Below are positions 8,194-62,979 of a stretch of 64,000 bases of DNA, one piece after another (position 1 is the stretch's first letter; every line of letters starts with the position of its first letter). Below the pieces are notes generated by a model that made no database searches, was not told where the DNA came from, and was given only the letters and a program-made list of their open reading frames with translations. This stretch comes from Cephalotus follicularis (taxonomy: Eukaryota; Streptophyta; Magnoliopsida; Oxalidales; Cephalotaceae). The stretch lies in contig BDDD01000178.1 of NCBI GenBank assembly GCA_001972305.1, positions 524,417-588,416 on the forward strand, written 5' to 3'. The position numbers and the translations under genes are program-made.

Positions 8194-8273
8194 CAGTCGA
8201 CTACCACAGGGGATCAGTCGACTGCCTCAGTCGTGCAGTGGACAGTCGACTGCCATGTGAATCCAGTCGACTG
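8194..8273. repeat. CAGTCGACTG palindrome array (21-bp spacing)
   Basis: Motif starts are 8194, 8215, 8243 and 8264, with a degenerate copy at 8228. Intervals are 21, 28 and 21 bp. The 10-bp palindrome is conserved while the spacers differ. Confidence 0.85.
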
Positions 8274-9272
8274 TAATTTTGACAGAACATGTGTCTGTGC
8301 AGGTGTCATCTGATATTAGGCGTGGCCTGCATGGGAGACAGGTGTCCTAAGCTGCCAATACATGCAGGTAGAGGCCTTGCATGTCCTCTGCTTCACCTGC
8401 ATTTGCAGAACCTGCAATTTACAAGAATTAAGAAAGAAAAGCATATGAGACATGTTCATGTGAGTGAGAGGAAATGGAGGAAATGTGGAGCTAATAATCT
8501 CTGGCGAATTCATGGCCTATATCATCCGAATGTGAGGATGTTATGAGTGTTAGAAACACAAAATATTGAGAGAGTTGCTGGAGAAATTGATTGAAAGCTT
8601 GCATTGGAGAGTTTGGAGCTTGAAGCTCAAAGTGGGAACTTGGGATCCTTGACATTCCTGGTAAGTTCGAATCCTAACTTCTGGGTTGTTGTAAGCTGAC
8701 ATTGAGGTTAGGAGGATGTTTAATCTACTGTATAAACGATTTATTAACATCTTAAGAGGATGAATTGATAAGGAATGTAACTTTGGCTCAAGCATATGAA
8801 CATGCAATCTCTAAATTGTGTTAGAAGGTTGTTACTAATGCCATGATAAGCTACTGAAATTCTTATGTATATACCTACTCATCTTCTGTCCATTAAGAGA
8901 TTAAGAATTGAGATAGTTGATCATGCATAAGAAGTAGTAAAATGGAGGGACATAAAGCTTAATGAAATAATAACTTAAGCTACCGATTGGAATGTTTATC
9001 TGCTACTGATGCATTCACCTATAACATGCATAGATTGAACCTCCTGTGATTGAAAAGAATTGATTGGGTAAAAAGCTTGGAAGAGACTTGGAAAGCTTCA
9101 AAGAGATAGATCATTCAATTGATCTTGGGATAACATTTTGAGGTAGGGATAGTGTTATGTATTGGAAGATATGTTCATGCATGTCATGTATGTTGATTTC
9201 TAATTGCAATTGAGTTGATTTGGCATGAAATTGCATTATACAAACTGATCTGCCTGCATTTCTGGGCAAAAC

Positions 9273-9343
9273 CAGTCGACTGCCACCCAAGGAAGTCGAC
9301 TGCTAAGCCAAACAGCCGGCTGGTTCTTGAGGGCAGCCGACTG
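9273..9343. repeat. CAGTCGACTG/CAGCCGACTG array
   Basis: Four motif copies start at 9273, 9293, 9313 and 9334 (20-21 bp apart) in the second half of the same solo LTR. Confidence 0.85.
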
Positions 9344-10855
9344 TTCTGGGCTGGAACTGCATAATCATCATTGAATTGCTACTGTCTTTGCATTGTTGTT
9401 GAGTGTCCATGTTACCAACATAATGCACATGCTGTATGATGCTAGTTAACATCAATACCACTGAAATATCACTGATTGAATTAAGTATGTGCTATATGCA
9501 CCATTATAGTTTTAAACCTCCGTTCAAATGCAAACTACTATTTGCAAGAGTTACTGATTTGATTAAAGTTACTGTACATACTACTTATGCTAGTATATAC
9601 CTACTGTATGATGTATTAACATCATTATTTTTACTAATATTCAATGATGAGATGAACTAGATACAATAGGTACAAAGTTATGGTTAAATCATTTCAATAA
9701 ACTACCGATTTCAAAACTATTGTTTTGATTACCATATAAACTATTTATACTAGTATATATACAGTTTGGTGCTAATAAACGCCACTGTTACTGTTATTTT
9801 TAAAGATTGAAAACGTTTACGGGACTTGATCCCCAAAATGTGATAATTCACCATCATAAAAGGAATACCGAATTATCCACTACTGTTTATCAACTATTGA
9901 TTGTGAAATACTGTTTTCACCTACTGTTTTCCTCCACTTGTGAGGTACCGACTGTTTGTTTCCAAATTGGAGACCCAACTGTACTGATATCGTTTCCTCA
10001 AAAATGAGATGCACGATTACTGAACTGTTATGTTTAAAGAAAACATTTGATATTGCGTATAGATTATATATGTAATATTACTACTGATTGTACTGATTGA
10101 ATTGATTGTCTATGTTACTACCGTAGTTTGGTGATTGAGGTTATCACTGGCTATGGATGTGATTCTGGGTGCCAGGAGTTGGCCAGAGTATCACCTACTG
10201 TCTGCACATTGCAGAATTACTGTTAAACTACCCGCCAACGCCGGTAGTAACTGATACCTTTTCTATCATTCTCGGAGTGTAGGGTGATAGTTAGGTGGTG
10301 CACAGTTGGGGGCTAGGAGTTAGCGACATGTGACACCCAAACCACTGAACGACTGAATTGATTGTACCCTTGTGCGGTATCTATGCATATGTACTGTTTA
10401 TGGCCACTTGGCATGATTGCTTATATATTGGCTCACTGAAATGATATTTTGATATAAACTGTCATACATACTGCATTCATATATTCTTCTGCATACACTA
10501 TCTTCCTGCTTAGCCAAGTGAGGACAACGGCTAACCCCTACCATTACAGATTGAGCAAGGACTTTTGGAGCTTGCTGCTGAAGCTTTGGAAGCTTATGTT
10601 TATTGTTTAAGGTTGTTATTTCTTTTTGGACTGTATTGTAATGAACGTTTGGATCACACCTTGTTATGTTGTTTTTGTACCCGCACGTGGTATGGGACGC
10701 GTGTGGATGACTTGTAACTTTACATTCTAGCTTATTAACTGCTTCCACATATTGTTATTTCTTTTACATAAATGCTGGAATGTATGTTTAATACTGATAC
10801 TACCTTATATGCTGGTCCTAACGAAGGCATCGAAATGACGGGGTGTGACAGGAAC

Positions 10856-13225: not shown

Positions 13226-14061
13226 TGAAATAAGCACTCTTGAAATATACAAGAGGGGGGGTAAATTGAATATTTAGGTAAAATCAGGAATTTAAAAACT
13301 TTCAAAGTAAATAGTGAAGGGATAGAAAAACTTCTCCGAATTTCGAGTGGTTCGGCTAACTCTTGCCTACGTCCACTTTTCCCAAGGGAGCTCCTTGAGT
13401 TTCCACTATCTCGAATTGATTAAGGCAGCAATTCGTTACACCTTACAACTTCGTGATTGACCTCAATCACAAGACCTTGACCTCAAGATCTTAGAGGATT
13501 CTCCTCTTTTACAAGTGATAAAGAAAGTGTTTACAAGATAACCTCTCAAATAGGTTGATATGAAAAATACAGCTCTCAATATGAAACACTCAGAAAATCT
13601 CAAAGGATAAAGCTTAGAAGCTTGTTAGAACACAATTGAGTACTTTGAGCTTTTTACACACTAGAATGCTTGAATATGAAATCTCTTGATGTTGTGTGAT
13701 TGATGTGAATAATTCTGAATTCTTGTTATTCTGCTGAGGTTTCAATCTTCCTTTTATAGCCATAAAAGATTTGTAGCCGTTGCATAAATCATGGAAGCTT
13801 TTGATTTAAAAATGTGTAGTTTCAATCTTTGATTTTTGTCTCTGCTGACATAAAGACGTCGATGTCTTTATAGTTGATAGCCGTTGGAAGTGCTCATACT
13901 AGCCGTTCTAGGTTTCCCGGGTCTTGTTCATTTAAAAAGACGTCGATGTCTTTTTAAAGGCATCGATGTCATTTCTGGGAAATCTCCAGCATTTGAATCT
14001 TTGAACATCACATCGTCTTCTTCTGTGGGAGTCGACGTATTTTCTGGGAAATGTAGGTAGA
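13226..14061 (-). repeat. Copia-2 3' LTR (truncated)
   Basis: It matches 19322-20176 of the 5' LTR with few changes. The remaining 426 bp of the LTR and the polypurine tract are missing, and the extra ORF runs straight into it. Compared with the other LTR it lacks one palindrome unit of about 20 bp near 13859. Confidence 0.92.
13751..13760 (-). promoter_or_regulatory. TATA box of Copia-2 3' LTR
   Basis: The minus strand reads GCTATAAAAG in a GGCTATAAAAGGAAG context. The same site is at 19847-19856 in the 5' LTR. The palindrome array lies just upstream of it (13857-13966, on the right in plus coordinates). Confidence 0.75.
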
Positions 14062-15357
14062 ATCGGATTCATCGCCCGAAGTCTCTTCGCAACGATCAAT
14101 AGTCTTGGAATCGGCAAGTTTTCGTTCCATTCTTTTGAGACGCCTCTTAACGACTTTTAGATCGTAGTAGATGGTGTCATCAACATTTTCGAAGTCGGAA
14201 TGAAGTATTCCATGATCTTTCTCCAATCTAGTGAGCCGCATGTTGACTTGCTCAAATTTATCTTCAAGCGCGGCTTGCATGGAAGCAAATTGAGAACGCA
14301 TGAACTCCTTCACCATGTCATAATAAGTAGAGGATGAGGTTCCTTGAGCTTGAGCCTGAGCTGGTGCAGATTCTCCTTGAGCTTCCCGAGGAGGATTCTC
14401 TTCTTGCTCTTCAATTGCGATCCTTGGCCCTTGATCCACTTTGGGGCAATAAGTCCAAATCCCTTCTTGTTTCTTCCACCACATCCGATTCAAAGTACTC
14501 TTATTGTACGTGTCTTCTTTCTTCAATTTGGTTGCTGCTTCTCCTTCTAGCCGAATATGACAATGTTGGAAGACTTTGGTAAGAATTGATCCAAAAGGGA
14601 GTACGGATATCTTTTGTGAGAATGCTCTTACCATAGTCTTGAGCATGAGGAGAGGAAAACAAAATTCAATTTTAGAAAGGATGCACCACATGAGAAAAAC
14701 TTGCATCCTAGACAATTTTGCATACCCTCCACCGGTGGGTAGAATTTGATGTACAATAAGATGGTGGAGAAGCCTATGGTCCACTGATAATCTATTTGTG
14801 GTCAGTGCCATATTGGGATGAACATTTGGATCATTTGGGTACAAAAGAGACAAAATTTGGTTAGGGTGAAAACCCTCAACCTCCGGCCATTTTTTGTGTT
14901 CAAAAACATATAAACCGGTATGTGGAATGTGTAAAATAGAGGCTAGAATCCTAGCATCTAGATAAATTCTCTCCCCTTTAACAGATGAGGACAGTGCAAA
15001 TTCCTCATTGTGGCTTGAAACCATTCGAAGGTTGGAGTAAAATTCCTTGACCAATTTTATGTAAAAAGGGTCAAAAATTTGAACAAGAGGGAGGAGATGG
15101 AGATCATCTAACCAAGACACAAAAGAAAACTCGGAAGAACAGAAATCCAAGCCGATATTTCTGCCTCCCATCACTCTTTTGTCAACAAAGGAAATATTCG
15201 TAAGAGGGGCAGGGACTTGCTCTTCGGATTAGGAATCCGATTGGAGAGCAGGGTTAGGAGAAGGCTCTCTAATCTCAAGCCTCTGCTTTTTAGCAGATTT
15301 CGGAGGCTGAGAGGATGAAGCACCTTTCTTTTTGGCACCAAGTTTCGACCTAACCAT
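14008..15357 (-). pseudogene. Copia-2 extra ORF (putative plant transposon protein domain)
   Basis: The likely original start is the ATG at 15355-15357 (MVRSKLGAKKKGASSSQ, a basic N-terminus with KKK and KKQR patches). A single TAA at 15229-15231 interrupts it, and a 388-codon frame is open from 15174 to 14008. The core (WLDDLHLLPLVQIF, IKLVKEFYSNLRM, VKGERIYLDARILASILHIP, IVHQILPTGG) resembles the 'putative plant transposon protein' domain found in extra ORFs of plant retrotransposons. The C-terminal third has a coiled-coil-like region (MRLTRLEKD, LKVVKRRLKRMERKL). The last 18 or so codons lie in LTR sequence, so the natural C-terminus was lost. Position between pol and the 3' LTR resembles the env-like ORF position of Sireviruses. 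Its function is unknown. Confidence 0.7.
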
Positions 15358-15564
15358 TTTTACAAACAGTTGGTGTGCACAAGAGACAAACACAAGGAGT
15401 GATAAAAACAGATGGATTGGACAAGATGAAAACTGTTTTTAAAGATGGAGAAGGAATCAGAGGATGATTTACGACCAAATAGAAAGATTTTTTGAAGAAA
15501 AACGAGAGTGAAGAAAATTTTCGAAAACTCAGAAATGGGGGTAAGGTGAGAAATGAACATGAGG

Positions 15565-15797
15565 TCGACGATTTTATGAAGAAGTCGATTTCTGAGTAAA
15601 AGACGTCGACGTGATTCAAAAGAAGTCGACGCGTTCTTTAAATGAACAGAAGAAATCGATACAGAAAACGCTGCGTTTTAAAAAGCATCGACGCGTTTGA
15701 AAAGTAGTCGACGTGTTTCAAAGAGATCGATGTTTTTCAAAAAGGATCGACGTGATTTTCATAAGTCATAAATTTTTCCAGAAAAGAAGTCGACGTT
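15565..15797. repeat. AGTCGACG-type palindrome array in Copia-2 body
   Basis: TCGA cores start at 15565, 15585, 15606, 15626, 15656, 15688, 15708, 15727, 15747 and 15790. Most are 19-21 bp apart, in the non-coding space between pol and the extra ORF. Confidence 0.8.
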
Positions 15798-15945
15798 ATT
15801 TTGTAAAGCATAGAATTTCCAAAAAAGAAATCGACGTTTTTGTAAAGCAGAGCAGAAAATCAAGCAAAAACAGAACAATAACCAAAAATCAATCATCACA
15901 TAAATTATGCATACAATCAAACATATCATTCAAACATAATAGACA

Positions 15946-18703: not shown

Positions 18704-19307
18704 TCAATTATATTTTACTTTGTTTTATTGCATCAATAATATTTATATATCTATATATACATATGTTTATTTGAGAAATATTAATGAAGTTTCTTTGAAT
18801 ACTTAATGTTTACATTTGGATCCTATAATGTTAAAATGTGTTTATATATGCTATGTAAGATAGTTATTTGTTAAACTAACATAAATGGCATCGACGCTTT
18901 TTCAAAAGACGTCGACGCTATTTAAATATCTTGTTTCGTGTAAAATTGTTCTACATTTATAGGTGTTTTTTTTTTTATGAAAGACATCGCTGTTTTTGAG
19001 AAAGACATCGATGCGTTTCATTGTTGTCAGAACTTAAAAGTTACAGGCATGTTTTACACACAAGCATCGATCCGATTTAGTAAAAACATCGATGTTGCAT
19101 CAAAAAAAGTCGACGTCTTTTCTACCACATCAACGTGTTTTTCATATCATTGAAGATGGGATCGACGCAGTTCATATGACATCGATCTCGGCTACAAGTC
19201 CAGAAAACACATCGATGCCCACATACGACATCGACACCTATCATTCATTTAAAAAGGACATCGACACCTTTCAATGAAGTCGACGCTTTTGACCCATGAT
19301 TTCCAAA
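18704..19307 (-). other. Copia-2 leader with ATCGACG/GTCGACG array
   Basis: Non-coding sequence between the inverted gag and the primer site. From 18891 to about 19290 it holds at least ten palindrome-like motifs with a TCGA core (first two at 18891 and 18912, 21 bp apart), similar to those in the LTR and after pol. Confidence 0.75.
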
Positions 19308-19319: not shown

Positions 19320-19846
19320 ATTGAAATAAGCACTCTTGAAATATACAAGAGGGGGGGTGAATTGAATATTTAGGTAAAATCAGGAATTTAAAAACTTTCA
19401 AAGTAAATAGTGAAGGGATAGAAAAACTTCTTCAAATTTAGAGTGGTTCGGCTAACTCTTGCTTACGTCCACTTTTCCCAAGGGAGCTCCTTGAGTTTCC
19501 ACTATCTCGAATTGATTAAGGCAGCAATTCGTTACACCTTACAACTTCGTGATTGACCTCAATCACAAGACCTTGACCTCAAGATCTTAGAGGATTCTCC
19601 TCTTTTACAAGTGATAAAGAAAGTGTTTACAAGATAACCTCTCAAATAGGTTGATATAAAAAATACAGCTCTCAATATGAAACACTCAGAAAATCTCAAA
19701 GGATAAAGCTTAGAAGCTTGTTAGAACACAATTGAGCACTTTGAGCTTTTTACACACTAGAATGCTTGAATATGAAATCTCTTGATGTTGTGTGATTGAT
19801 GTGAATAATTCTGAATTCTTGTTATTCTTCTGAGGTTTCAATCTTC

Positions 19847-19856
19847 CTTTTATAGC
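19847..19856 (-). promoter_or_regulatory. TATA box of Copia-2 5' LTR
   Basis: GCTATAAAAG on the minus strand, identical to the site at 13751-13760. U3 with the palindrome array lies to its right. Confidence 0.75.
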
Positions 19857-20189
19857 CATAAAAGATTTGTAGCCGTTGCATAAATCATGGAAGCTTTTGA
19901 TTTACAAATGTGTAGTTGCAATCTTTGATTTTTGTCTCTGCTGACATAAAGACGTTGATGTCATTCAAAAGACGTCAATGTCTTTATAGTTGATATCCGT
20001 TGGAAGTGCTCGTACTAGCCGTTCCAGGTTTCCCGGGTCTTGTTTATTTAAAAAGACGTCGATGTCTTTTTAAAGGCGTCGATGTCATATCTGGGAAATC
20101 TCCAGCATTTGAATCTTTGAACATCACATCGTCTTCTTCTGTGGGAGTCGACGTATTTTCTGGGAAATGTAGGTAGATCTAGAAAGACG

Positions 20190-20480
20190 TCGATGTCTAT
20201 TGAAAGGCGTTGATGTCTTTCGTACGGATGTCGATGTCTTTACTGATAAGCATCGATGTCATCACTCAAAATTGTCCTGTAACTTTGGCACCTAGAGACG
20301 TCGATGTCTTTCAGATAGGGATCGACTTCTTTCGTACGGACGTCGATGTCTTTGCTTATAGGAGTCGATGTCTTCATGCAAATTTGACCTATAACTTCTG
20401 GCATGAAAGACGTTGATGTCTTCTTGATAGGAGTCGATGTCTTTCTGTACGGACGTCGATGTCATTTCTTGAAAGTCGAT
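20190..20480. repeat. GACGTCGATGTCTTT array with 21-bp and 112-bp order
   Basis: TCGA-core (or TTGA) starts are 20190, 20210, 20231, 20253; 20301, 20322, 20343, 20365; and 20413, 20434, 20456, 20476. This is three sets of four with 20-22 bp steps, separated by two gaps of exactly 48 bp (set repeat 111-112 bp). It lies in U3 of the Copia-2 5' LTR. Confidence 0.92.
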
Positions 20481-20602
20481 GTCTTCTTCTGCAGATGGTA
20501 TTTTGCCATTGTATTGAACTTGTAATTTCTTGCACATCAAGTAAATTTGTTAAATGCAAATATGTTATCATCAAAACAAGGATTGAGACTAAATCGTCAA
20601 CA

Positions 20603-21142: not shown

Positions 21143-22175
21143 TGTAATATCCCAAAACAACCCCTACATGCTTTAGCATTTATTGCATCATATTGATATA
21201 GAGTACGAATAAAATGATAAATGATTATGCATAGGGATATTGATGGAGTGGGGTATTTCCAATACCCATATGATATGATTGTATGTATGTTTACAGTATT
21301 GACATTGCATGAAGATAGTTTATGGTAAAGAGAGTATATAAATAGAGCCTTTAACCTTTAACCTTTGAACATTTCATTTTCTTCTTTTCTCCTTCTCTCT
21401 CCCGTTTCTCTCTCTCTCTCTCTAAACTCACCCAAAACTCCACCAAACTAGCTGCCTATAGTCAAGAATCAAAGGGAATGTATATATGGATGATCATAGA
21501 CTTGATTGACACAAGATTGAAGCTCTATTGGCCAAGAACTTGAGTTCCTTCTCACATTTCTCAACCTAGAGGCCAAAAACAAGCTTCAATCTTTGGTAGA
21601 AACCTTCTCTACCTAAATATGCTATTAATTACAAACATATACACATATATAAACTGTTTGGATGGATAGAAATTGAATGAAATGGATTAAAATTGAATAT
21701 TAGAGAGTTAGGTCTAATTGGGGCTTTTAACCCTAGAAATTGAACGAATGGATTTGAATGAATAAAATTGTTTTAATAGCATATAAATAATTAATAGGAC
21801 TTGTATTGAAAGGATTTAAAGAAAGAAATTGAATTTGCAAAGTTTTAAAGCATGAACCTAGGGTTCTAATGACCTAAGCGTCGACGCCCAGTCCATGAGC
21901 GTCTCCGCTTAGTGGTTCTTTTAAAGAGGTCTACGCTTTCAAACTTTCAACACTTAGCCTTCCTTTGGCAGCGTTTGGCTAAGCGACAACGCTTGGTCAT
22001 GAGTATCACCACTTAGGCCCTTTTCAAAATTTTCAAAACCTACTATCTATTGGTTTCATTAAAAAGTGGCTAGATTAACATTTAATTTTACCCAAACTAG
22101 CAAACCATAAAACGGAATGGATTTACTATAAACAAAACCTATTGCCAAGATTATTTTGATCAACACTTTAACATA
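21143..22175 (+). repeat. Truncated gypsy-type LTR
   Basis: It starts TGTAATATCCC, like the long LTRs elsewhere here. It has a TATA box at 21335-21344, a CT-rich leader, and GCGTCGACGC-type motifs at 21881, 21902, 21930, 21986 and 22006. The right end merges into alpha copy 2 without a CA end or matching TSD, so it looks truncated. Confidence 0.6.
21335..21344 (+). promoter_or_regulatory. TATA box of truncated LTR
   Basis: TATATAAATA about 190 bp from the TG start, followed by a CT-rich run typical of an LTR leader. Confidence 0.65.
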
Positions 22176-23948
22176 CCAAACGATCAGGAGAATGAGAAGA
22201 AGATGATGATAACACTTACTCTTAAAGTTCTTTAACTCCTTCTAATCTTTTCAATACACTATCAATTTCAAGACACTTTGATGAGTGAAAAAGTTATGCC
22301 ACCTCAAAGAGGATCCACACCAAAAGAGAAGTAAGAGAGTGTATGGGAGAGAGAGAATAGAAATTTCGGCCAAGCTTGTATTTTACCAATTTGAGATGCT
22401 AGTCCCAAAAGCCTTAGTCAAAATATAAGCTTAGGAAAAATGAACTCTTAACCATTCACCCATTCAACATTGGTATATATACTAAGTCATAAAGTGAGTT
22501 ACTAGCTTTGACTATATCAAGTCAAAGGTAGATAACTTAAGTTAATGTCACATGTAATTAATCAAATTAATCATATAACCTTATGTCACGCCCCGAACCA
22601 TGGGAGAACCCCATGGCCCGACACGTGGCCACCATCCATCAATCCATCCATATAATCATAGCATAATATCCAAAATACGCTATAATTTAAAACTTTAATA
22701 CATACTGATACAGCGAAAAACATCCATCAAATGCTTGCATAGATAAGCCCAAAGTACATATCATATCATCAATAATAGTCTATAGCACTGCCACAAGCCG
22801 ACATGTTAATACAACTAAAGTAAATCAATTCTTATACATTCAAAGTCTCATATAAGGTAGATAAAACAAATACTGGACTTCTATCAAAGATATGCTCTGG
22901 AAGTCCGATCCGTCTCACTTCAAAGCATCCTCTGCACTCAGCCCTAAATGTTGTGCCCATTTCGATAATAGGTCAGTCAAACACAGCTATGTAGGTAATA
23001 CTATATGCAATGAAGTAAGTAGTTATATATATATATACACATGGCATGTGAAATGCATGAATGCCAATTGTGGACAACGTTCATCATCACCGTCCTTAAG
23101 TGGTGACATATTTAATGAGTCTTAACCATACAACTTACCATCCATACACCCTAAGTCTACAGACACTCTAAAAATCATCCATAACCATACTGTACCGTTC
23201 CATAACCATACATGAGTACAAACAATCCCTAAGTCAAGATACCACTATGCCTCTTCTGCCCGAGATAGTACATTCACTGCCCATACACCCTCTGTGTCAT
23301 AGCCCTGTGGAATCAAGATAACACTGACCACATCAACCCTCCCTTAATGCTAGTCCCCTTAGGTTATATCCCTTAGTTCCTTAACCCTCCCATATCCTTT
23401 AATTCCTTAACCCTCCTTTAATGCTAGTCCCATTGGGTTCCAGCCTTTAATTCCTTAACCCTCCCTTAATGTTAGTCCCCTTAGGTTCCAGCCTTTATTA
23501 AATACAATGGTCCTATAGGTCAATCCACAATGCGATGTCTCTCCATAGGCTCACCCATAAAGTGGTTCCTATAGGTCCATACAACTTTCGTATTGTGTGG
23601 TCGATTCTCCTAACCTCCATGATGGGTGAAGATTAGAATTAGTTATCCTTCCCGTAATGCTAGTCCTTAACGGCTCTAGCCCCTAATGGTGTTCCCTTAG
23701 GTCCAACCATACGCCGCCATAACCCTATGTCGGTCCCCATCAAAGTTCATAAAACCATTTATAGAAACCTTGTTGAAATCCATTGGAAATCATATGTGTT
23801 TAAAATGAGTATCCCATAGGTTACACGACCTTAGGGAGGTTTCCTATGGATCCCATTTGGGTATACCAAAATTTTGGATTGATAAGGGGTTGAAACACAT
23901 CATTTCGTATAAAAATAGGGCAAAACGTCACCGGTTTCATGCAAGGGC

Positions 23949-24168
23949 TCGATGGTTAAGGAGTTAGGCCTTAAGCTTCGACAGGTGCACGAAGCATCGA
24001 CCATTTGGAAACACATAAAGCATTGACGATTTAACCAAAAGCCTCAACGGTTTGCCCATTTCCTTGAGCGTCGATAATTGCACGAGGTGTTGACAGTTCA
24101 TCCCTTTAGCAAAGCGTCGACGCTTTAACCAAAAGAATCGACGATTTGCGGCCTTAGCAGAACATCGA
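23949..24168. repeat. GCGTCGACGC array with 21/27-bp spacing
   Basis: Core starts are 23949, 23978, 23997, 24023, 24044, 24071, 24090, 24117, 24138 and 24165. Most intervals are 19-21 or 26-27 bp. A perfect 16-bp palindrome AAAGCGTCGACGCTTT is at 24111-24126. Confidence 0.85.
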
Positions 24169-24693: not shown

Positions 24694-24703
24694 CTATATA
24701 TAG
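24694..24703 (-). promoter_or_regulatory. TATA box of solo LTR 22584-24861
   Basis: The self-complementary CTATATATAG about 160 bp inside the minus-strand LTR start, followed downstream by a GA/CT-rich leader. Confidence 0.65.
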
Positions 24704-31192: not shown

Positions 31193-31196
31193 TTTT

Positions 31197-44826: not shown

Positions 44827-44855
44827 TCTGGTCCCCAGATTCATCGGTCAAACAA

Positions 44856-48722: not shown

Positions 48723-48867
48723 TGATCAGATGCAATCACTTTCAATTTCCAATATCAATCTCCTTTCCAATAACAATAGCATGAATAAGCAAGAGCACAT
48801 ATCATGCAAATCCATTCAGTCAATCTCAATCAACGCATTTATATACTTAGTTAGCAGGCCGACCAAT

Positions 48868-48880
48868 GTCTCTGATATCA
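48868..48880 (-). other. Array INT2 primer binding site
   Basis: The minus strand reads TGATATCAGAGAC, a one-base variant of the tRNA-iMet-type site, three bases inside LTR 3. Confidence 0.85.
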
Positions 48881-49270
48881 TAGTGTAACACCCCGCGCCC
48901 GCAGGGCGGACACGTGGCATTACTCTCAATCCAAAACACAAAACAATGGTCGGGACTAGCAATATAAAAAAAATGCGGAAAACTTTAAAACTTTACAATA
49001 CAGCATCAATCTTATACAATGCTAGTCTTTTACAATACATTATCAATCTTTCAATACAATATCTCAATACATTACATTACATCTTTCACTACAATATGTC
49101 AATCAGCTCTGCGGTGCCCAAGCAAACGTGTAGTCAATCCGGTCTTCGGTCCTTCTGTCCACTGCTACATGCTGCCCTACCTATGTCGCACACAAAGGTA
49201 CAACACAGCCCCACCCCGAAGAATGGGGTTAGCCACACTGGCTAAGCAGAAACCCCATGCAGCATGTATG

Positions 49271-51437
49271 TCTAAGGACCCAAATTTCCATGTAAGATAT
49301 TAATTATGTTTGCTATTGTGTAGTTGGCAAATATTTCAAGGGACCCGTAGTATGACCCTACGATCGGGGAGTACGGGGGTTCCGCTCCCCGGTGAGCGGA
49401 CGGTGGGTCCCGCTGCCCGGTTAGGGGGCAGGGGTTTGGGGGGCAGCGCCCCCCGAAGAAAATTTTTTTTAGCTAAGAGATGAGAAGGAAAACTGTCTAA
49501 AGCGCCGACAGTGCCACTTAAAGCGCCGACGCTTTGGTAGTGACGGTCGACGCTTAGAACCCTTCTATCTGCGTTTTAAACCAATTCAAACCGTCGACGC
49601 TTAGGCATAAAGAGTCGACGCTTTGGGTAACGGTCGATGCTCTAAATGTAAATGTCGACGCTTTGAAGTCAGGTGGGTCAGTTGACGTTGACGTTGACAT
49701 TGACGAAGACTTAAAAGCGGCGACGCTTTGTAAGAAAGCGTCAGCGCTTTAGTCGGGATAGAGATGAAAAAGCTCACCGCTGACGCTTAGAGAGAAACCG
49801 TCGACGCTTTGAGTCGTTTTTCTGATGTTTTGTGCGCCACGAGCAACGAATGGAGGCGGCGTTTTTTTTCTATAAATATCAGTGATCAGTAGAAAAATTT
49901 GAAAGAAAGGGAAAGGAGAGAAGGAAGAGAGAAAGAGAAAGGAGAGAAGGAAAAGAGAAAGAGAAAGAAGAGAAGGAAGAGAGGAAGAGAAAGAAGAGAA
50001 GGAAGAAAGGAAGAGAGAAAGAAGGAAAGAGGAGAAAACAAAATTTTGTTGGGATTTCAGCATAGTAATTTCTTCAGTGTGGAGAAAAGAGAGAAGGAGA
50101 TAAAGCAAGGTAAGGACTCATGTTCTTTTTTTTCTTCTAAAAATACCTTATGTTAGGAATTTCTACTCATTCTTGTAAAGCATTTTATTTTAGTATTCAG
50201 CTCAATTTAATTTAACTTGCCCATCGATATGATCGGTATATCCGTCTGACCGAGTGGAGGAAGTTAATTTTTAATTTAATATTTCAATTAAGCAGTTTTA
50301 TGCTCGTTGCAACCGTTTATTTTATCAACTCAATTTAATTTAACTTTCCCATCGATATGATCGGTATATCCGTCTGACCGAGTGGAGGAAGTTAATTTTT
50401 AATTTAATATTTCAATTAAGCAATTTTTATGCTCGATATTTAAATAACTTATTTGTATATATCTTTTATAATTATTACGTTCCTGTATTTTAAATTTCTG
50501 TCAATATTCGTGGTAAATGTCTATATTAAATTTATGTAAATTCTTAAATTCTATGTTGAATTGCTGCCAATTTCTTAACGAAATTATATATTACCATTTT
50601 AAAATATTTCCGTTTGAAATATGAATTCTAGAAAATGTTGTACAAAATTATTTATGAATGCTTTGAGCTGATCACTCAACGTATCAAGAAATGATTATTT
50701 TTACGAAATGAGAAAAGGCAACATACTGAGATGAACAACGACTGGATTGCGATCCAGGGTGGATTAATCTAGTAAAACATTAATGTGAAAGAGCGGAGAA
50801 TGCTCTCGGACATGCATGTGATGTAAGGATAGTAATCGGGGAGTGCACAATGCCCAGGTGAAGCAATGGTTCAACAGGGTTATTTAATTTTATAAACCCC
50901 TCAGTATTTATGAAATATTCTGATTCATGAGATATGATCAGAAAAGAAATGAATGAATGTGAAATATACTGGTTTTATAAAAATACCAGAAAATGAATTT
51001 CAATAATGTTTCATTACGATAATTCTTACTGAGCTATTTTGGTGCTCATTCCTTTCAATGTTTTTGTTTTCAACTAAAATTTTCCAGGAAAAGATTGAAC
51101 GAGGAAAGTCGAGCTTTGAACGAGGAACGTCGAGCTTTGGCAGGAGCTCATAAGTGATAATTTCAAGAAGGAATTATGTTACGAAATATAGTTTTGTGTA
51201 ATAGTTTATGACATTATAACTAATGTTTTTCGCTATATAATGCCTTTGATGGATCCTGTGGAGATGTAAGATGTTAACTATAATTGTTATGATTTTAAGG
51301 TTTAATATATCAAGTTATTTATAGATTATAGCAATTAGTAGGCTTGTTAAAGGATAATAGGTTTCATCACCACGTAATGCACTGACTCCCCAAAGTTCAC
51401 TTTGAGCATAAAGTAGACTCGGATCTGGGGCGTTACA
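49271..51437 (+). mobile_element. Solo LTR nested in array LTR 3 (same event as 40603-42592)
   Basis: 2167 bp, flanked by gtatg at 49266-49270 and 51438-51442. The first bases are TC instead of TG. It differs from its twin by substitutions and a duplication of about 128 bp (starts 50201 and 50329) plus a small duplication near 51095-51140. The palindrome array is at 49505-49815 (starts 49505, 49526, 49547; 49594, 49615, 49634, 49655) and the TATA box at 49870-49879. Confidence 0.95.
49870..49879 (+). promoter_or_regulatory. TATA box of solo LTR 49271-51437
   Basis: CTATAAATAT, one base different from the twin at 41200. Confidence 0.75.
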
Positions 51438-52627
51438 GTATGCATGTACAATGTGCAATATCGGTGACAATCTATACAATATCTATGTGCGGTGTACAAT
51501 ATCAATGTATGACATGGCAAATGTACATGTACAATGTGCAATATCGGTGACAATCTATACAATATCAAGGTGCAGTGTACAATTGGTGATCAGACTACCC
51601 GTATGACAGTGGCCCATAACAGAGCATACGGATAGGATCTATAATAATCAATCAATGGCCGACACTCAATGGTGGTGTATGAAACACCCAATCAATCAAT
51701 CAATATCCTATAGAGCATGCGACCGGGTCAATACAATGTCAATCGGTTAGCGGTGATCAATCCCACGGAAGGTAGTCCTTAAAAATGGGTGGGAGATCTA
51801 TCTACGATTCTCAGATTGATCAGGTCTGGGACTCATAGATCTTCCAGCCTATGGCTGGGTCAATACAATCTCGATGAGCTACAACCGAGGGAGCTACTGA
51901 TACCATTAGGGAGCCACAGCCTCAAGGGAGCATCAATCGACAATCAATCAATAGGCTCAACCGTTACGGAGAAACAATCAATACCGCTCGTCAGCGGGTC
52001 AATACAATACAATAAGTGAAACGATCGGCGGAATAGGCGGACAGAGTCAACGCCCTAACATGCCGACACGAATCATAATGTCGCTCTATAGGATCCATAC
52101 AATACAATCAATCAATCAATCGAGTCAATACAAAATTGGGAAAAGTCAATAAGTGGTGGTGTCTAATGGAGAAATGGGAACGTGCGTCCATCGTACCGAC
52201 TTAGGCTCGCAACAACACTCAGGACTCAAGCAATCGATCGATGTATTAATACAACGTCAAAGCAAAGCAATAAGTGGTGGTGCCTAATGGAGGGATGGGA
52301 ACGTGTATCCATTTTACCGACTTAGACTCACAGCAACACTCATGACTCGAGCAATCAATCAATCAGTGCAATCAGTAGCCGCTAGGCGGTGACAATCAAA
52401 TCGACGGAATAGGAAAGAACATCTATTTGGTCAATGAAAGTCACTGAGTCATCACCTATGGCTCAAGCTGTCACTCTATCAATCTATCATTTCGATCTTT
52501 GAAAACCATTGAAAACTGTGTTTTAAAACGCTTGAATACCTCAAGTGAGGTTCCGGTTAAGCGGCAATGTGAAAAGGGTTGAAAAACCAGCTTTAACAGT
52601 TAAAAACTCCACTCAGCCCGAAAGGCG

Positions 52628-52960
52628 TCGATGTCTTTGGCCAAAGACGTCGATGCTTATCAGGGCATGTCTTTAAAAACGGTAGAAAGACGTCGATGTC
52701 TTTCAAAGACGTCGATGTCTTTCTCAATTTGGACGAAGACGTCGATGTCCTTGGACAAAGACATCGACGTGTTTCAATGAAAATGGCCTGGAGATGCGCA
52801 TCGATGTCTCGCGTCGATGCCTTTTCTGAGGAAAGGCATCTCAAGCAAAAGACGTCGACGTCTTTCAAAGACGTCGATGTCTTTTCTGCGAAAGCAAGGA
52901 GGCTGCATCCCAAAGCGAAAGACATCGATGCCCATGGGCAAAGGGATCGACGTCTTTGCT
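52628..52960. repeat. AAAGACGTCGATGTCTTT array in array LTR 3
   Basis: Core starts include 52628, 52650, 52693, 52712, 52742 and 52764, then more to about 52955. A perfect 18-bp palindrome AAAGACGTCGACGTCTTT is repeated near 52849-52866. Confidence 0.88.
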
Positions 52961-53552
52961 GGAAATGGCCAATTTTTCTGTAGAAAACCAACAATTTTAA
53001 AGCCAAAACCCAATTAAATCCATTCTTTAAGAAACCAAGGGTTAAAAATTCAGTCTTTAAGGTTAGTAAAACTAGTTATAACCTTCAATTTAATACTTCA
53101 ATCATCCTAGATCCATTGGGTCAAGGAAATCAATAAAAACCCTAGTTTTTACAATTCATTTAAATTCAATCATTCAATCACTCAATCAATCATTCAATTC
53201 AGTCAATCAATCAATAAAGCGATAGACAATTCAGTAAAGAAGTCCTACCTTTCACTGAAGCTTCAAAAGTTGAGCTGACGATCGATCAATCGGCTGAAAT
53301 CGCTCAATAATCCGTTGCTTTCTTGTTCAATCGGTAAGCCACTACTTGTAATCACTGTCCTTGTCGATGGAGATGCAATTCCAGCTGCAAGGGAGGAAGA
53401 TCGGTAAGCCACTACTTGTAATCACTGTCCTTGTCGATGGAGATGCAATTCCAGCTGCAAGGGAGGAAGATGGAGGCTCCAGCTAGAGAGAGAGGGAGAA
53501 GGATAGAGAGAGACATGAATGGTGAGAATGAGAGAAATGACAAAGGAATTAA

Positions 53553-53561
53553 CTTATATAG
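53553..53561 (-). promoter_or_regulatory. TATA box of array LTR 3
   Basis: Minus-strand CTATATAAG, as in LTRs 1 and 2. Confidence 0.65.
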
Positions 53562-53739
53562 TCGATTCGGTCAATTCTCCGAAACTCAGCCCGAAATCCC
53601 GACTATACATGCATAAGATCAATACAATATCAATAGGTATAAGAATACCTCAATTCAATGCAGTTCAGTACGGTCCAAAACGGTACAATAAGGTACGATG
53701 TATGCATGAAAAGTACAAAAGGGAATTCGGGTCGTCACA

Positions 53740-54907: not shown

Positions 54908-56850
54908 TGTCACACCCCGTTTCATTGACAACATAAAGGTCATGGAAATTTAACATAATTATTCAGCTTATGCAAATACGGTAAAATTTAAAACTTTAAA
55001 TACCAACAATATTATGCCAACAGGCTACAATCTCACAGTTCACAATCATGTCCAAAGGACCAATCAATTCACAATGGGTACAAAGAGCGTCGCCAACTCC
55101 TGGCCCCAACATCGTACATCCTGACATTGGCCCCCAACTCCTGGAAGCACGAGCAGGTCACGGTACAGTGAGTTACCCATTCATCTCCTGGCTCCTGGGT
55201 CAACCCGACCACTAGCCATCGCTGGCATCTCCGCCACGCAACTAGTATGGCCACAATCACAATCACAATCAATATCACAGTCCAAATCACAATCACAATC
55301 ATCTCAATACTCAATCAGTTTTCAAAGCAATTTATAAGATAAAAATACTTGAAAACAATCACATTTTTACGATGTCACGGTTCTCAGTTCACGATGTCAC
55401 AAATCTCAGTTCACGATGTTTTGGAAGCCATTTTCACAATCTTCCGAAAATATACATTTTACTCAAAACATACATTTTTGTATAAAGTAATGATTCATAA
55501 TAATCATGTATGCACTTCCAAAAATGATAAAACATTTCATAATCAATAATAATCAATTCACAATTCAGTTTATCACAGTACACAATGCACACATATGCTC
55601 ATAATGCAAAACAGTCCCAAACAATCGGCTGTCTCCCCCTGACAGTCGGCTGTTTTCCTTAAACAGTTGGCTGTCCTCACTCAGCAGTCGGCTGCCCACG
55701 GTCAACAGTCGACAGTCGGCTGCCCCCTTTGGCAGTCGGCTGGTCCCTCACTCAACCAGTTGGTTGTCCTCCTATGGACAGTCGGCTGGTCCATGAACAG
55801 TACACGTTTCGTCAACGTCACTTACCCCAACATGCCATCTCAGTAAACCCGGGTAAAGTGACACGTGGACAGTCGGTTGTCACCCCAAATAGTCGGCTGT
55901 ACCACCCACAGTCGGTTGCCTTCTCTTTGGCAGTCGGCTATCCCAAACAGCAGGAGGTAACCTCCATTAAAATGCATGAACAGTCGACTGGCTCCTTTGC
56001 GCTGTCGGCTATTCTCACCGAACAGTCGACTGCTAGCCTCGGATTGTCGGCTGTCCTCCTTGGACAGTCGGCTGGCCCTGCGGATAGTGCACAAAAACAT
56101 CAGATAATACATGCAATTCTCAATCCAAATACATTTGAAACAGAGCATTCATCAACCACAAAACACATTCATGCTCATATCACAGTACATTGCATGCATT
56201 TCATCTATGGACATTATTATGATTAAACTTAAACCACAATTATAGACTATCCCCTACCTTGAATTCCAAGTTAGGAATTGCAATCCACCTCTTTAAGTCC
56301 CGGATCCGAGGCATTCAAAGCTCCCAGGTCCGTCCAATGGCTCCAACAAACTCGATTCTCCCACTGGTTTGAGCTTCCCAGCCTCCGGTTCAAGTATAGA
56401 ACCTTGGGATTAACTTCTCCCTCTCCTCTCCTCTCCTTCTTCCTCACAACTCTCAGGTTTCTTTTCTCTCTTAGAAAAGCTGATTGAAAGAGGAGAAGAA
56501 ATGTGTTTTTATGGGGAAAACATGTTTCTCCATTTCTCTGCCAACACAATCCCCCAAATCACTCTCCCTTACTGCCAACAGGTCTGGCGACGTTATGTTG
56601 TCTGACCTGTTGGCAGTCGACTCCCTCGACTTGGAAGTCGACTGTCACAACCGATAGTCCCAGTCGACTATTTCTCCCAGCAGTCGGCTGGTCACACTAA
56701 GGGGGTCCAGTCGACTGCCTCCTTCCAGCAGTCGGCTGCCCACCGTGTTTCAACACATCCCTTTATCTTTCCATGCAAGTTTTAACACACAATATAGGAA
56801 ACTCATGATTCTCATTAATTTAAAGCATAGATTACATTGGAAATACAATA
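54908..56850 (-). repeat. 3' LTR of gypsy B
   Basis: Starts TGTCACACCCCG and matches the solo LTR 30297-33121 over most of its length. The last 33 or so bases of the LTR and the polypurine tract are deleted: TACAATA runs straight into CTCGAAGAATTTCATCC of the internal region. It has CAGTCGGCTG blocks at 55622-55788, 55870-55940, 55981-56095 and about 56612-56745. Confidence 0.88.
55622..56095. repeat. CAGTCGGCTG array of gypsy B LTR
   Basis: Starts are 55622, 55643, 55664, 55685, 55706 (four exact 21-bp steps), 55713, 55733, 55757 and 55779; then 55870, 55890, 55909 and 55931; then 55981, 56002, 56023, 56044, 56065 and 56085 (four exact 21-bp steps). Confidence 0.95.
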
Positions 56851-57955: not shown

Positions 57956-60297
57956 CCCTTGTTGGGCTCGCCTGCCTGGGTCCATCTATATAATTCCTTT
58001 CCTTTTACATTCCATTTTCTAAATCTATTTCCTTCCTTTTATTATTTCCTTTTTATCTCTTTGTCCATTAAGCGCGTCCCGGGTATAAAAAGAGCACGGC
58101 ACCTTCTCATGCTCACTATACTTAACAAATTCATGCATGTAAACTCTCTCAATTACCTTATTCTTCACCTGCCCGGGGTCGCATACCTACATACTCATTT
58201 CCTCACTTTATGATTGCATGCAGGGAGTATGACAGGGATGCATGCACACACATATACCATTTCCTTCTTCAATAACGCATGCAAGGCTATATTCATCACA
58301 TAATTACCTGCCTAGGGACGCATGCCTATACTTATCCAACTCCCTTCTTCATGACGCATGTAGGGAGGTCATGCCAGGGGACGTATATGTACTCATATTC
58401 CATTTCCTTTCCACGTAGGTGCATGTAGGGGACAACTCCAGGGGACAATGCATGCATAGTATGCATACTTGGCTCATAGCATCGAAGAACTTAGTGTCCT
58501 CTCATGCTTGACGAAGCTAGAGGAGGATCATAATGCGAGCATGGTAGGGAAGAGCCATGGATGGCTCCTTTAGCATTGGCACATAGCATATGTTACCCCT
58601 GGCGTCGTCACCTCGACGCCTGTCCTCCCAGGAGTTGTCACCTCGGGCTCGTGACATTCCTGGCATGGCATCTCGGCATGACTCCTTTGGCGTCACCACC
58701 TCGGGCACATGGCACCCCAGGCATTGACAGAGCAGCTCGGGCATGTTTACCCTGGCATCACATCTGTAATACCCCATACCTGTTTTTAGAGGATTATATT
58801 TTAAGGTCTTGTTTGGCTCATGGGAAGGATTAAGTGGGATTGGTGGCTTATTTAAAACATGTGGACAAGAATGGTTTAAGTTTTATATTATTATTTTGGT
58901 TAGCTTCTTGAAGAAGCTTGTTGTTCCCAATGTTGTGTTGGGATAAGAAGGTGTTGGAGTTGGTAGTTCTTCTTGGTAAGTGAGTTCGGTTTTTGGAGAG
59001 AGAGAAAGAAAGGGAGAGCTCTAGTCTTCTTCTTCCTTGCCGAGAGTTGGAATCTTTGTCTTGCTTATGAGCTTTGGAGGTGAGCTCCCACCTTCTCTGG
59101 TTTCGGTAAGGGCATGGTGGTACGTTGTGCTCGGGCCGAGGAAGAGGATGATGGCCTGGTTTGGCTAGTTATGTTATCTTTATGTATGTGTTTGTGTTTC
59201 TTCCTAGGTTGATTCGTGTTAGTTTTGTAGACGACGGTCCCGTTGCTGAGACGGAGCACCTCGGCGTTGGTCGGCGATAATGTGTGGGGTGTTTCTGTGA
59301 GTGGGACATTCTCCTATTTCTTTTATTGATATTTACGTGTGCCTATTATTGTCCTCTTGTTGAATGTTTTCCTTGGGGATTTGGATCCCAGTTATTCTTG
59401 TATATTTGTGTTCTTGATCTAGGATGAGCTTGAGAGCTCGGTTGGTCCTCAGGATGGTGTATTTTCATCTTCGGATGTGTTGTTATCTTTGTTGATGATT
59501 CTCTCCTTATAGCGTGGTTTTCCTCTGTTATGAGGGGTGCATGAAATTGTGCAGTTTGGTTTCTTGGTTTTCCCCTGGTTGTACGGATAAAGGGTAGCGA
59601 GCTGAGGATCGGATAGATACTAGTGAACGAGGTCCGGATAGATACTAGCGGACGAGGTCAGGATAAAATCTAGCAAGCGAGGCCTGGATATGTGTGTGTG
59701 TGTGGTGTCATGGTGTATGACGGCAGACCAGGGGATGTGGTGATGTGTGTTTGTCTTCCTCTTCCTTATTTGTTGTCCCCCGGCATGGTTATTATTTGTT
59801 GATGATGATATAATCTTCCATTGGACTCTTATACTTGTTGATATTTGACTCTCTTGACAGGCTCCGAGGAGCTGGATGTTGTCATGTGGTTAAGTTGTAC
59901 ATTCTTTTATTGTCCCCTGATATATTCTTGTTTCTCCCAGTTGGGTATGACCTAATATATGTTTCCTTGTGCGTCCAATGGTTGTGGATGCTGTGGAGAA
60001 TGCTTGTTCTTCCTCACTAGTCATTTGGACTAATCCCCTCCCAGTTGTTTTGGAGAGGAAGCTGTTGTTACTGTCAGGGCATTCTTTTGGGTTGACAAGG
60101 TAGTCTGCGGGGGATGAGCATAAATGCCGGCTTCACGGGCTCATCCTTGCATGCATTCATGGGGGAATATGGGTTTTATTCTTTTTTTTTATGGTCCTCG
60201 GCCTAAGGAGGAAATGATATTCTTTTGTATGGGTCCTCGGCTTTTGAGCAGGGGATGATATTTTGTGAACAAGATATATATTATTTTGGAATGATAA

Positions 60298-62979
60298 TGT
60301 GACACCCCCGAACGGCGGGAGTCCTTACCGGTTCATAGTCCGAAACTAAACATAACCTATCATGAAACATGGCTCAATTTTATTCTTTTTATCAAAATGT
60401 TAACTCATCTTTTATTCAATTTGCGTGATGGTCATAACATAACATTTATAATCTAAGACATAGTATGAAAACTTTATTCATAAACTGAAAACTAAAACAT
60501 AAACCAAAACTGAAACATAATCCAAAGGCATAAACTGAAAGGCATAATATTGTTCAAATAGGGGTTCTAACATGACCACAAAATAACTAAGCATAAACGG
60601 TTCCATCTCCTAAGTGGTCCTTATCATAGGTGACATCTCGATCATCACACATTGCCCGGATGCTGTCCCAGAATACCTGCCGCATGGAAACAAAAACGCG
60701 GCTGAGCAAACCTCATTACGGATATAGAATCATAAAACATAAAACGATAATTTAAAAGATAGAAAATACCTGAATCTTTAAATATCGTATACCTTATGCA
60801 TAAAATAATTTAACATTATTTTCAAAAGCGAGGGTAAGTAGTCATACAATCAATTCAAAACGAATATCCAATTTTCAAAGCGTTATTCAATTTCAAAAAA
60901 TAATCCAAGTTCAAAATTTCAAAACATATTCAAAACAAAAAACAAACAGAGACTTATCCGATTCCATAATCTCATCTCAGAGATCCAAAGCGCATACACA
61001 TATGCGTAATTGCAATGGGTTTGCAAGGCACACATGCCAAACGCCTCTATCACACATATCGGATCCATAAGTCCACATCATGGGACTTATTCATAACATA
61101 GAGAGATGTCGTAGTCAAATCACACTGCTACGGAAGTGTCATGTCCCCGTGCCAGGCCTACGACATGCCTACGGTACCTCCATAGGTAGGAAATATCTCT
61201 GTGTATATCCTTATTTCAAAAACATTGCTTTATTTCTAAAACAATTTAAAAACTTAAACACATTTTCTAAACATTTTCTGGACATGGCAGAATCATTACA
61301 TAGCATCAACTCATTTATTTTCCACTGTAAAGAGATGATAGTATCATATTTCTTAACATGTCATAGCATAAAGTCAAGAACATTAAATTCGCAAAATGTC
61401 AACTGACTTTTATTTTCAAAATCGTATCGAATCATAAAACATGGCCAAGTTCATTAAAACAGCAGGAATCACATTTGAATTCATTTCAGTAAAACCGTAG
61501 GAAGAGACCAATAACAAAGAATCGGTACGTTATCCATAAAGTAAAACTATCTTTTATTTACTACAGTAAAACCGATAGGAGGGTATCAAGGAACGAAAAT
61601 CCGTACCTTAAGCGATCACAACAAAGATAGAGGAATTGATCAACAATTTTAAAAGTCCCTCGAAGCACAAAAATCTAAAAGATACAATATCATTCATATA
61701 AGGATTCAAAAATCACTTCCAAACATCAAACAGTAATTTAGCAGTGTCAAAAGCATACTCCAAATCATTACAAAACCAAACGGATAACAAAACTTGAAAC
61801 CAAAAAATTTACTGGACAGAACCAGCCGACTGTATCAAAATCCAGTAGACTGTTCAAAGGTGGCAGTAGACTGTATTGCATAGGCAGTCGACTACTCAAA
61901 CTGGGTTAAATCCAGTCAACTGTGACAGGGGTCCAGACGACTATGCAAGGCAACCAGCCGAATGTTTCTTAAGACAGTCGACTACACAAGGCAAAACAGA
62001 CGACTGTTTAAATGGACAGCAGACTGTTCTGCTCGAAAGAACAACAAAACACAGAAGTTTCAATAAAAAATTTCTGTCAAACTTCCAATATTACAATACC
62101 AGATGATCATAGCTATATTCATAGGACTTATGTGATATATCCGTTGAATTAAAAGCATAAAAAACAAGAAATTTATGCCATTAGTGATCATGCTTTTAAG
62201 AGAGGCAATTTCAATTCATTGCATGTATATCTATGTAATCAATTTTCTATCAAACACTAATTGCTAGTTTCAAAATCTGTTTATTACCATTACAAGTCAC
62301 TTCAACACTTGCTAACGATTTCATAAACAGCAGTAGAACATATATGACAGGAATAAAAATCGAACTATAACAGTTTATGTATACATCATAACAAAACAGG
62401 ATAACCATATACTAATTGAACCATGATACACAAACCTGATATGATGAACAATGGGGGACACAGCAATTTCTAAATCATGCAGGTTCGGTTCTAGGCACAA
62501 TGACACAGTAGAGGCATAAAAGGTGAATGATGGCATACATATACAATATGGGAAAGGCAATTTAGGTCATGGTAAGGAAAAAGGAATCCAAAATCTAATG
62601 AGATAAGGAAAGAGAGCAAGAATTTCGAGATTGAGGGTGAGAATATCAGTTTTGTGAGGGAGAGGGAAGAGAGGAAATAAGGAAAATAAGTCTTTTAACC
62701 AAAAATAAAGATTTTGTTTCTTAATAAAAAAAATTTGCCAATTATAATAATAATAACTGATTTTAAAATACAAAACAATTAATTTTTATTTTTCCCATAA
62801 TCCTTATTCCATTAATTTATCAAAAGCCCAAAGATGGTATTATTTAGCCTAAGACATAAAAGCCCAAAAATTATAATATCATATAGCCCATAAATTAAAA
62901 TAGGCCAAAATAATATAACAACCAACATAAAATCAAACAAAAATCCAAAAATATGCATATGAACAAACGGGTTATTACA
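60298..62979 (-). mobile_element. Solo LTR F
   Basis: 2682 bp, TGTGACACCCCC...GGGTTATTACA, flanked by gataa at 60293-60297 and 62980-62984. Minus orientation is judged by the CACCCCCGAAC end. It carries a CAGTCGACTG array at 61823-62026. No coding sequence. Confidence 0.93.
61823..62026. repeat. CAGTCGACTG array of solo LTR F
   Basis: Starts are 61823, 61843, 61864, 61885, 61913, 61934, 61955, 61975, 61997 and 62017: steps of 20-22 bp with one of 28. Confidence 0.92.

Follow-up and report, generated by a model that had tools for sequence, protein, structure and literature searches.

Arrays of short palindromes centred on TCGA, with a spacing close to 21 base pairs (bp), are present in the long terminal repeats (LTRs) of retrotransposons of Cephalotus follicularis. 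They were analysed in a stretch of 64,000 nucleotides of contig BDDD01000178.1 (C178:524417-588416, here called the window) within a genome of 1,577,397,061 bases (1.58 Gb) in 9,746 contigs. The arrays are confirmed to be real and genome-wide. The Copia element carrying them in the window belongs to the Sireviruses, in which such palindromic arrays are already known as "repeated motif" (RM) boxes. Two of the three classes of box, A and B, occur in both the Copia and the Ty3/gypsy superfamilies; RM-type boxes are not confined to Sireviruses. From these sequence features we propose, with a little more confidence than doubt, that the arrays are boxes of the Sirevirus RM type and act in cis as cooperative DNA-binding sites for a trans factor, probably of the host, which would serve the LTR promoter.

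The three classes are A, ACAGTCGACTGT (with variants such as CAGTCGGCTG), a palindrome of 10-12 bp; B, AAAGACRTCGAYGTCTTT, of 18 bp; and C, AAAGCGTCGACGCTTT, of 16 bp. Sites were called at a match of 72-75% or more to the consensus, and because of this threshold some calls are weak. The 155 called sites (62 A, 59 B and 34 C) form 19 clusters of at least three between positions 8190 and 62030; 21 further lone sites were excluded. Neighbouring sites are 19-22 bp apart, start to start, in 83 of 136 intervals, most commonly 21 bp, and no interval of 14-18 or 23-25 bp was found among the called sites. Without duplicate LTR copies, 74 of 117 intervals fall in the same range. The spacing of about 21 bp holds in all three classes despite their differing palindrome lengths.

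The strongest test of the spacing is a motif-free count of TCGA pairs. Such pairs at distances of 19, 20, 21 and 22 bp number 11, 9, 16 and 11, respectively (47 in total), with none at 18 or 23-25, while 12 dinucleotide shuffles of the window give a mean of 2.1 and a maximum of 5 over the four distances. There are 22 TCGA-centred near-palindromes, compared with a shuffle mean of 1.3 and a maximum of 3. A partner at 19-22 bp is found for 81 of the 275 TCGAs; 168 are isolated and 26 belong to neither group. The flanks of the partnered TCGAs are mirror-symmetric at offsets 3-9 (0.44-0.63), with values of 0.23-0.33 from offset 10. For the isolated TCGAs the symmetry is near background, 0.24-0.35 at offsets 3-9. 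The original prediction of palindrome arrays with a spacing of 19-22 bp, mostly 21, is therefore borne out.

The signal extends far outside the window. A systematic sample of 200 kilobases (kb) was drawn from large contigs, each of 20 contigs giving one stretch of 10 kb taken at a fixed offset; L031-L033, chosen to extend three of these stretches, were excluded from the distance counts. TCGA pairs at 19, 20, 21 and 22 bp number 6, 22, 36 and 16 (80 in total); they peak at 21, and the signal recurs at 42 and 63. For the four distances, 30 shuffles of the sample give a mean of 4.8 and a maximum of 11. The signal is seen in 18 of the 20 stretches and in more than one family; the original prediction thus withstands its own refuting conditions as far as these were applied. 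When 16 palindromic tetranucleotides were compared in the sample, only TCGA stood so far above the neighbouring distances (80 versus 8 and 15). The sample holds 32 clusters of at least two boxes, of which 27 could be assigned (13 A, 9 B and 5 C) and 5 are weak. In the whole genome, where class A was counted, there are 38,225 copies of the exact pair CAGTCGACTG-N8..14-CAGTCGACTG (18-24 bp) but only 137 of its reversed-pattern control, and the CAGTCGACTG pair at N15..28 occurs 8,820 times, against 20 for the reversed-pattern control.

It is important to compare the window Sirevirus (13226-20578, rearranged) with the RM boxes as they are characterized in the available sections of Bousios et al. 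2010 (PMC2829016). There, the boxes are palindromic, occur in at least 8 copies and are found for the most part in two places, the upper LTR ahead of a TATA box and the linker that precedes the env gene. The window element has 37 called dyad sites outside its 3' LTR, some of them weak. In the 5' LTR (19322..20578, minus strand, 1257 bp), 15 of the 16 called centres lie at LTR positions 121-622, and the sixteenth, at 689, is weak and C-like; a TATA box follows at 724. The last clear B boxes are about 90-115 bp upstream of it, in keeping with a layout of boxes in the upper LTR half and a mid-LTR TATA box. In the RM layout given in the same source, the island ends about 45 bp past a box and the TATA box lies about 37 bp further, which implies about 80 bp. 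The linker between pol and the env-position open reading frame (ORF) holds a class B array of 10 called sites (15558..15841, minus strand), and linker copies before this ORF were also found in two other elements, at C95 208270-208314 (L021) and C5 205089-205133 (L011). A further class B array, with mixed B/C half-sites and 11 called sites (18884..19290, minus strand), is located in the 5' untranslated region (UTR), between the primer-binding site (19308-19319) and gag. The original prediction places the arrays in LTRs; those of this Copia element are found also in two other places, the 5' UTR and the interval from pol to the following ORF. The Sirevirus LTR array has an observed/expected CpG ratio of 1.38 at a GC content of only 0.41. 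The CGG-CCG core signature of RM boxes was not found in the consensus cores, which are GTCGAC/RTCGAY.

Further features agree with the Sirevirus assignment. The Sirevirus junction CA-ATTGG-TATCAGAGC (16 bp) is exact at 19308-19323 on the minus strand; it has one mismatch in L021 and is absent in L011, which lacks the region. Both Sirevirus LTRs of the window carry the polyC integrase signal CCCCCCCTCTTG 24 bp short of their ends, compared with about 21 bp as the Sirevirus criterion. The truncated 3' LTR, which runs directly into the env-position ORF, retains three class B boxes and one weak C-like call (13785..13973, minus strand). This extra ORF (14062..15228, minus strand, scanned as 14008-15228) matches PF20167 (E 1.6e-21) and has 377 homologues, and all 120 among the matches listed come from Cephalotus. 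The env-position ORF of the window Sirevirus is about 23% identical to that of the class-A Sireviruses described below. A structure model of the ORF was too poor for searching (mean pLDDT 38). The gag gene (17723-18703) is on the plus strand while pol, the ORF and the LTRs are on the minus strand, which indicates an internal inversion.

In Cephalotus the boxes occur in two superfamilies. Two sample elements, C95 (L021, L031) and C5 (L011), were read as Sireviruses, with pol stretches 65-67% identical to the window Sirevirus; for L011 the label depends on a 153-residue stretch of RNase H that is 67% identical and on a match in the env position that is weak. Each carries class A boxes in both LTRs and in the linker. 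On the gypsy side, class A is found in LTR F6b of the window, beside which lies a remnant of gypsy pol (56887-57189). It is found as well in L014, L026 and L028, in LTRs that follow gypsy pol and match the window LTRs E2 or E7. Class B is carried by the window Sirevirus and, among gypsy elements, by E5 and L026, and the exact 18-mer AAAGACGTCGATGTCTTT is common to the class B array of E5 LTR3 and the Sirevirus LTRs. Class C, present in E5 and L022, is confined to gypsy-type LTRs among the elements examined. Two other assignments were withdrawn: the class C array of L022, once placed in a Sirevirus, sits in an apparent gypsy LTR, and L017, once taken as a Sirevirus with class B, matches the E5 LTR over 963 bp at 73% and is gypsy-type. 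Sites with one B and one C half link these two classes in a graded series (outside its 3' LTR the Sirevirus has seven, each E5 LTR has one and E4 has one); other mixed half-sites called are A/C (5) and A/B (2).

The original prediction counted at least seven unrelated families from Copia and gypsy. Seven LTR types do carry arrays in the window, from both superfamilies, but they are not all unrelated: with arrays masked, E4 and E5 have common stretches 61-78% identical, and E2 and F6 have 83 bp in common at 75%, near the LTR end. The spacer YCACAGGGGWN joins A boxes on both sides: in L011 and L031 among the Sireviruses, and in L014, E2 and L026, the last in reversed form, among the gypsy LTRs. 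When 26 Sirevirus spacers were compared with 44 gypsy spacers, the mean best gapped identity was 0.781, versus 0.738 for shuffled spacers (standard deviation 0.012, maximum 0.768 of 60). The common spacer is read as an exchange of array modules between Copia and gypsy, which lends some support to the earlier idea that arrays were gained repeatedly or exchanged. Alternatively, the spacer could have a function of its own.

Signs of constraint were sought in diverged LTR pairs and in coding DNA. In two diverged pairs the CpG dinucleotides are retained in 69 of 77 cases in boxes, 21 of 35 in spacers and 28 of 53 outside, each pair being counted in both directions and 9 gapped cases excluded; P values computed from these counts therefore come out too small. 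None of the 155 clustered sites falls in the 11,667 bases of 13 listed ORF stretches, in contrast to the lone weak sites, of which 7 out of 21 do. Whole units turn over, and insertions or deletions of about 19-21 bp distinguish LTR copies. Two other explanations were set aside. A coding repeat is not indicated: a search with translated A and B arrays gave no related protein at E<=1, and the reading frame is broken by intervals of 19, 20 and 22. Against nucleosome-type curvature, the B box has its TCGA and its A/T tracts on the same face at a distance of 10.5 bp, and class A has no A/T flanks.

These data allow us to propose how the arrays may work. Each palindrome would be read as double-stranded DNA by a putative dimeric factor, and adjacent dimers would touch on about the same helix face, so that the spacing is held near two turns (19-22 bp) while most of the spacer drifts. 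Such contacts are suggested by the near-two-turn spacing of neighbours common to boxes of different length. The dimer-type site of the original prediction gains indirect support from the dyad symmetry, the CpG retention and the absence of clusters in coding sequence. The factor would work in trans on several retrotransposon families, and a host gene is therefore its more likely source than a gene of some single element; it is the sharing of boxes across superfamilies that points to the host. The factor would most likely help to drive the LTR promoter or to keep it open. Families may grow and shrink their arrays by gain or loss of single units, and array modules may have moved between Copia and gypsy elements. 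A wider proposal is that both plant LTR superfamilies exploit one host family of dimeric proteins with a few related specificities (A, and B with its gradation to C), that elements converged on and swapped the 21-bp-phased array, and that a large part of the LTRs of the genome answers to the same trans factor. We put this forward only tentatively and think it rather doubtful in its full form.

Several observations weigh against a system of cooperative protein-binding boxes. The 52 longer gaps (24-120 bp) cluster at roughly one quarter of a period from the multiples of 21 (R 0.39, phase 0.27). Helical phasing of the long gaps is thus not supported, and the two-turn rule of the original prediction holds for neighbours only. 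In class A, most of the N15..28 matches listed, which come from the start of the genome, form another spacing mode at 27-28 bp (2.6 turns). Box conservation in the two diverged LTR pairs is only modestly above that of spacers: 0.83 and 0.91-0.92 for boxes, 0.75-0.77 and 0.84-0.86 for spacers and 0.77-0.79 for the other LTR sequence. Three comparisons of young copies gave no clear box excess, and in the Sirevirus LTRs the boxes are slightly less alike (0.957 versus 0.971). Spacers of equal length within an array are slightly alike, 0.41-0.44 versus 0.26-0.28 expected, as in a minisatellite. Finally, consensus-based calling inflates the identity of the palindromes, an effect that the motif-free distance and symmetry counts avoid.

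The 27-28 bp mode of class A is possibly a composite with the site of a second factor. Among the matches listed, these spacers often hold a CACGTG- or ACGCATC-like sequence, for example at C1:67026-67063. A 28-bp step is seen in the window as well, at 8214-8242.

One alternative to the binding boxes is that the palindromes matter as transcript hairpins, feeding small RNAs, an idea put forward for the Sireviruses of maize, or dimerising genomic RNA. All 28 folds (14 arrays, both strands) are stabler than the mean of 60 dinucleotide shuffles (z -1.5 to -11.7), and maize Sirevirus palindromes are small-RNA hotspots according to the available text of PMC5311732 and PMC10760457. Good folding on both strands is, however, as expected of palindromic DNA. 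The halves of the sites show no covariation, and permuted halves match equally or better in A, B and C. Half-mismatches compatible with wobble pairing number 127 on the presumed antisense strand versus 82 on the sense strand, and the antisense strand folds better in 9 of 14 arrays, although the other 5 reverse and the strands were assigned by the analyst. Since the halves lack covariation and the mismatches show no tendency to sense-strand wobble, a double-stranded DNA site is favoured. RNA structure also does not predict the CpG retention or the 21-bp spacing, and we regard it as unlikely. The antisense wobble excess itself comes mainly from 19881-20466, 31858-32401 and 55618-56078 and is reversed in 18884-19290, 61819-62030 and the E5 C arrays; tandem copying and avoidance of sense hairpins are candidate causes.

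The CpG retention would also fit hypomethylation by a VANC-like, transposon-encoded anti-silencing factor that binds the boxes and strips methylation, with unrelated elements carrying boxes to profit from it. The extra PF20167 ORF of the Sirevirus could be cited in its favour, but this env-position ORF has no tie to DNA binding. E5 carries B and C arrays, yet its internal ORFs of at least 150 residues (stop to stop) are gag-pol pieces and one antisense ORF of 151 residues per copy, in copies that are degenerate. Such a factor appears improbable. Functionless tandem duplication of a 21-bp unit, a plain minisatellite, would explain the single-unit differences of about 19-21 bp between LTR copies, the slight spacer similarity and the uneven half-site asymmetry (class A T..G 24, C..A 5; class B G..T 27, A..C 10). 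A neutral minisatellite should have spacers as similar as its core. In the window, same-array spacers of equal length are 0.41-0.44 alike and palindromes 0.76-0.82 (A, B and C, with only 5 pairs for C), a comparison that favours the cores, since these were selected by their match to the consensus. The poorly conserved spacers of the original prediction are thus recovered, except that one spacer type recurs across families. The spacers are near random, yet the spacing keeps to 19-22 bp with the adjoining lengths empty; CpG retention is highest in the boxes, classes A and B occur in two superfamilies, and no cluster lies in listed coding DNA. We consider plain minisatellites very improbable, and the interpretation given in the original prediction is, overall, partly supported.

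The remaining arrays can be placed in their elements. LTR retrotransposons crowd the window, with two Copia elements (identified by Pfam RVT_2 and Retrotran_gag_2), one compound gypsy element and four solo-LTR candidates. The second Copia element (1602-7584) has LTRs of 376 bp, in which no array was found among the called clusters. E5 (34620..53739, minus strand) is a Ty3/gypsy compound element of the order LTR-internal-LTR-internal-LTR, flanked by CAATC on both sides and assigned to gypsy through Pfam matches to RVP_2, Integrase_H2C2 and SH3_Tf2-1. Its LTRs reach 4856 bp; LTR1 is internally deleted, about 2.3 kb shorter than LTR2, and keeps three class B boxes (36179..36261). LTR2 has a class C array of 7 called sites (40850..41141) and a class B array of 9 (43776..44093). 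LTR3 has a class C array of 8 called sites (49519..49811, LTR 3929-4221 of 4856) and a class B array of 10 (52621..52957, LTR 783-1119), all on the minus strand.

Sense strands of E2, E4, E7 and F6 were assigned from LTR-like ends. Solo LTR E2 (8021-10850, plus strand; duplication GGAAC) has two class A arrays of 4 sites, at 8190..8277 (LTR positions 170-257; intervals 21, 28, 21) and at 9269..9347 (20-21 bp). E4, on the plus strand, has three weak class C sites in its LTR (21874..21996; intervals 49 and 56) and a class C array of 9 called sites (27573..27889) homologous to the E5 C arrays. Nested in E4 is a solo LTR of 2278 bp (22584..24861, plus strand; duplication CCTTA) with a class C array of 6 called sites (23921-24148); it also holds an unrelated minisatellite of CCTTAACCCTCCC type (23335-23497). 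Another, of CCCGCCCCG type (11439-11515), is outside the described LTRs. Solo LTR F6a (30297..33121, minus strand, 2825 bp; duplication CTTAG) has class A arrays at 31858-32401 and 32838-32950, and F6b, on the same strand, has class A arrays of 15 sites (55618..56078) and 6 sites (56610..56742). Solo LTR E7 (60298-62979, minus strand; duplication GATAA, with an alternative end at 59281 also matched) has a class A array of 10 sites (61819..62030). Thousands of ends were tried for 8 starts in the target-duplication scans, so single 5-bp matches can be chance; E2 and E7 are backed by common termini (TGT...ACA types) and long matches to LTRs beside gypsy pol. The scan gave no duplication for the E4 LTR (start about 21143) or for start 57184, and matches for starts 58765 and 33713 were not used, the latter overlapping F6a.

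Repeated factor-binding sites are known in the regulatory regions of retroelements, such as the BII boxes of Tnt1, the 13-bp motif of Tto1 and the Su(Hw) sites of Drosophila gypsy. Maize Sirevirus LTR palindromes are reportedly small-RNA hotspots, a result ascribed to Bousios and co-workers in 2016. The original prediction regarded its precedents (Tnt1, Tto1 and Drosophila gypsy) as single-family, while the Cephalotus boxes span superfamilies. As a general statement about precedents this fails, as palindromic RM boxes have been described for 13 Sirevirus elements in the available sections of PMC2829016. The maize palindromes are, in the available text of PMC5311732 and PMC10760457, clustered in the regulatory region and rapidly evolving, and one occurs also in structured regions of Helitrons. 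They are explained there by secondary structure, whereas the Cephalotus boxes lack half-site covariation. Viral contigs gave no match to the class A pair and six single matches to the maize box. The VANC targets of VANDAL elements, as given in the available text of PMC5735166, are short motifs in tandem repeats in non-coding regions of transposable elements; related elements have different motifs, and one motif is common to an unrelated element. The Cephalotus boxes resemble them in being short, repeated and non-coding and in being shared between unrelated elements. The VANC motifs (YAGTATTAY, AGTTGTCC) are, however, not palindromes as printed, and VANDAL elements are DNA transposons with an element-encoded factor.

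The presence of boxes of the same kind at fixed spacing in gypsy LTRs makes the question of the factor testable, since the factor should be shared. An array could be used directly as affinity bait, and altering the spacing by mutation offers a clean test. Should the host be the source of the factor, control of unrelated retrotransposons would be tied to one regulator. No factor is named for RM boxes in the available sections of PMC2829016, nor in the available parts of later literature. Among the open-licence papers listed by the literature searches no description was found of such boxes in gypsy LTRs, of shared classes or of a 21-bp rule, and among the literature matches listed for the box sequences none concerns plant transposons.

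The closest known system is that of the Sirevirus RM boxes, which the available sections of PMC2829016 describe as CpG-rich with divergent flanks and as Sirevirus-specific among the Ty1/copia elements compared. The Cephalotus Sirevirus arrays have the same LTR and linker layout, and their TCGA centre is that of the boxes of Tnd-1 (ACAATCGATTGT) and Vitis (CGGTCGACCG); the Tnd-1 box also lacks the CGG-CCG signature. They differ in that A and B boxes occur also in Ty3/gypsy LTRs, that the Sirevirus boxes extend to the 5' UTR, that the cores are without CGG-CCG, and that the 21-bp spacing and CpG retention were measured here. New in comparison with the 2010 paper, as far as its available sections go, are the A and B boxes in gypsy LTRs, the tight spacing of about 21 bp, the retention of CpG in the boxes and the A-box spacer found in both superfamilies.

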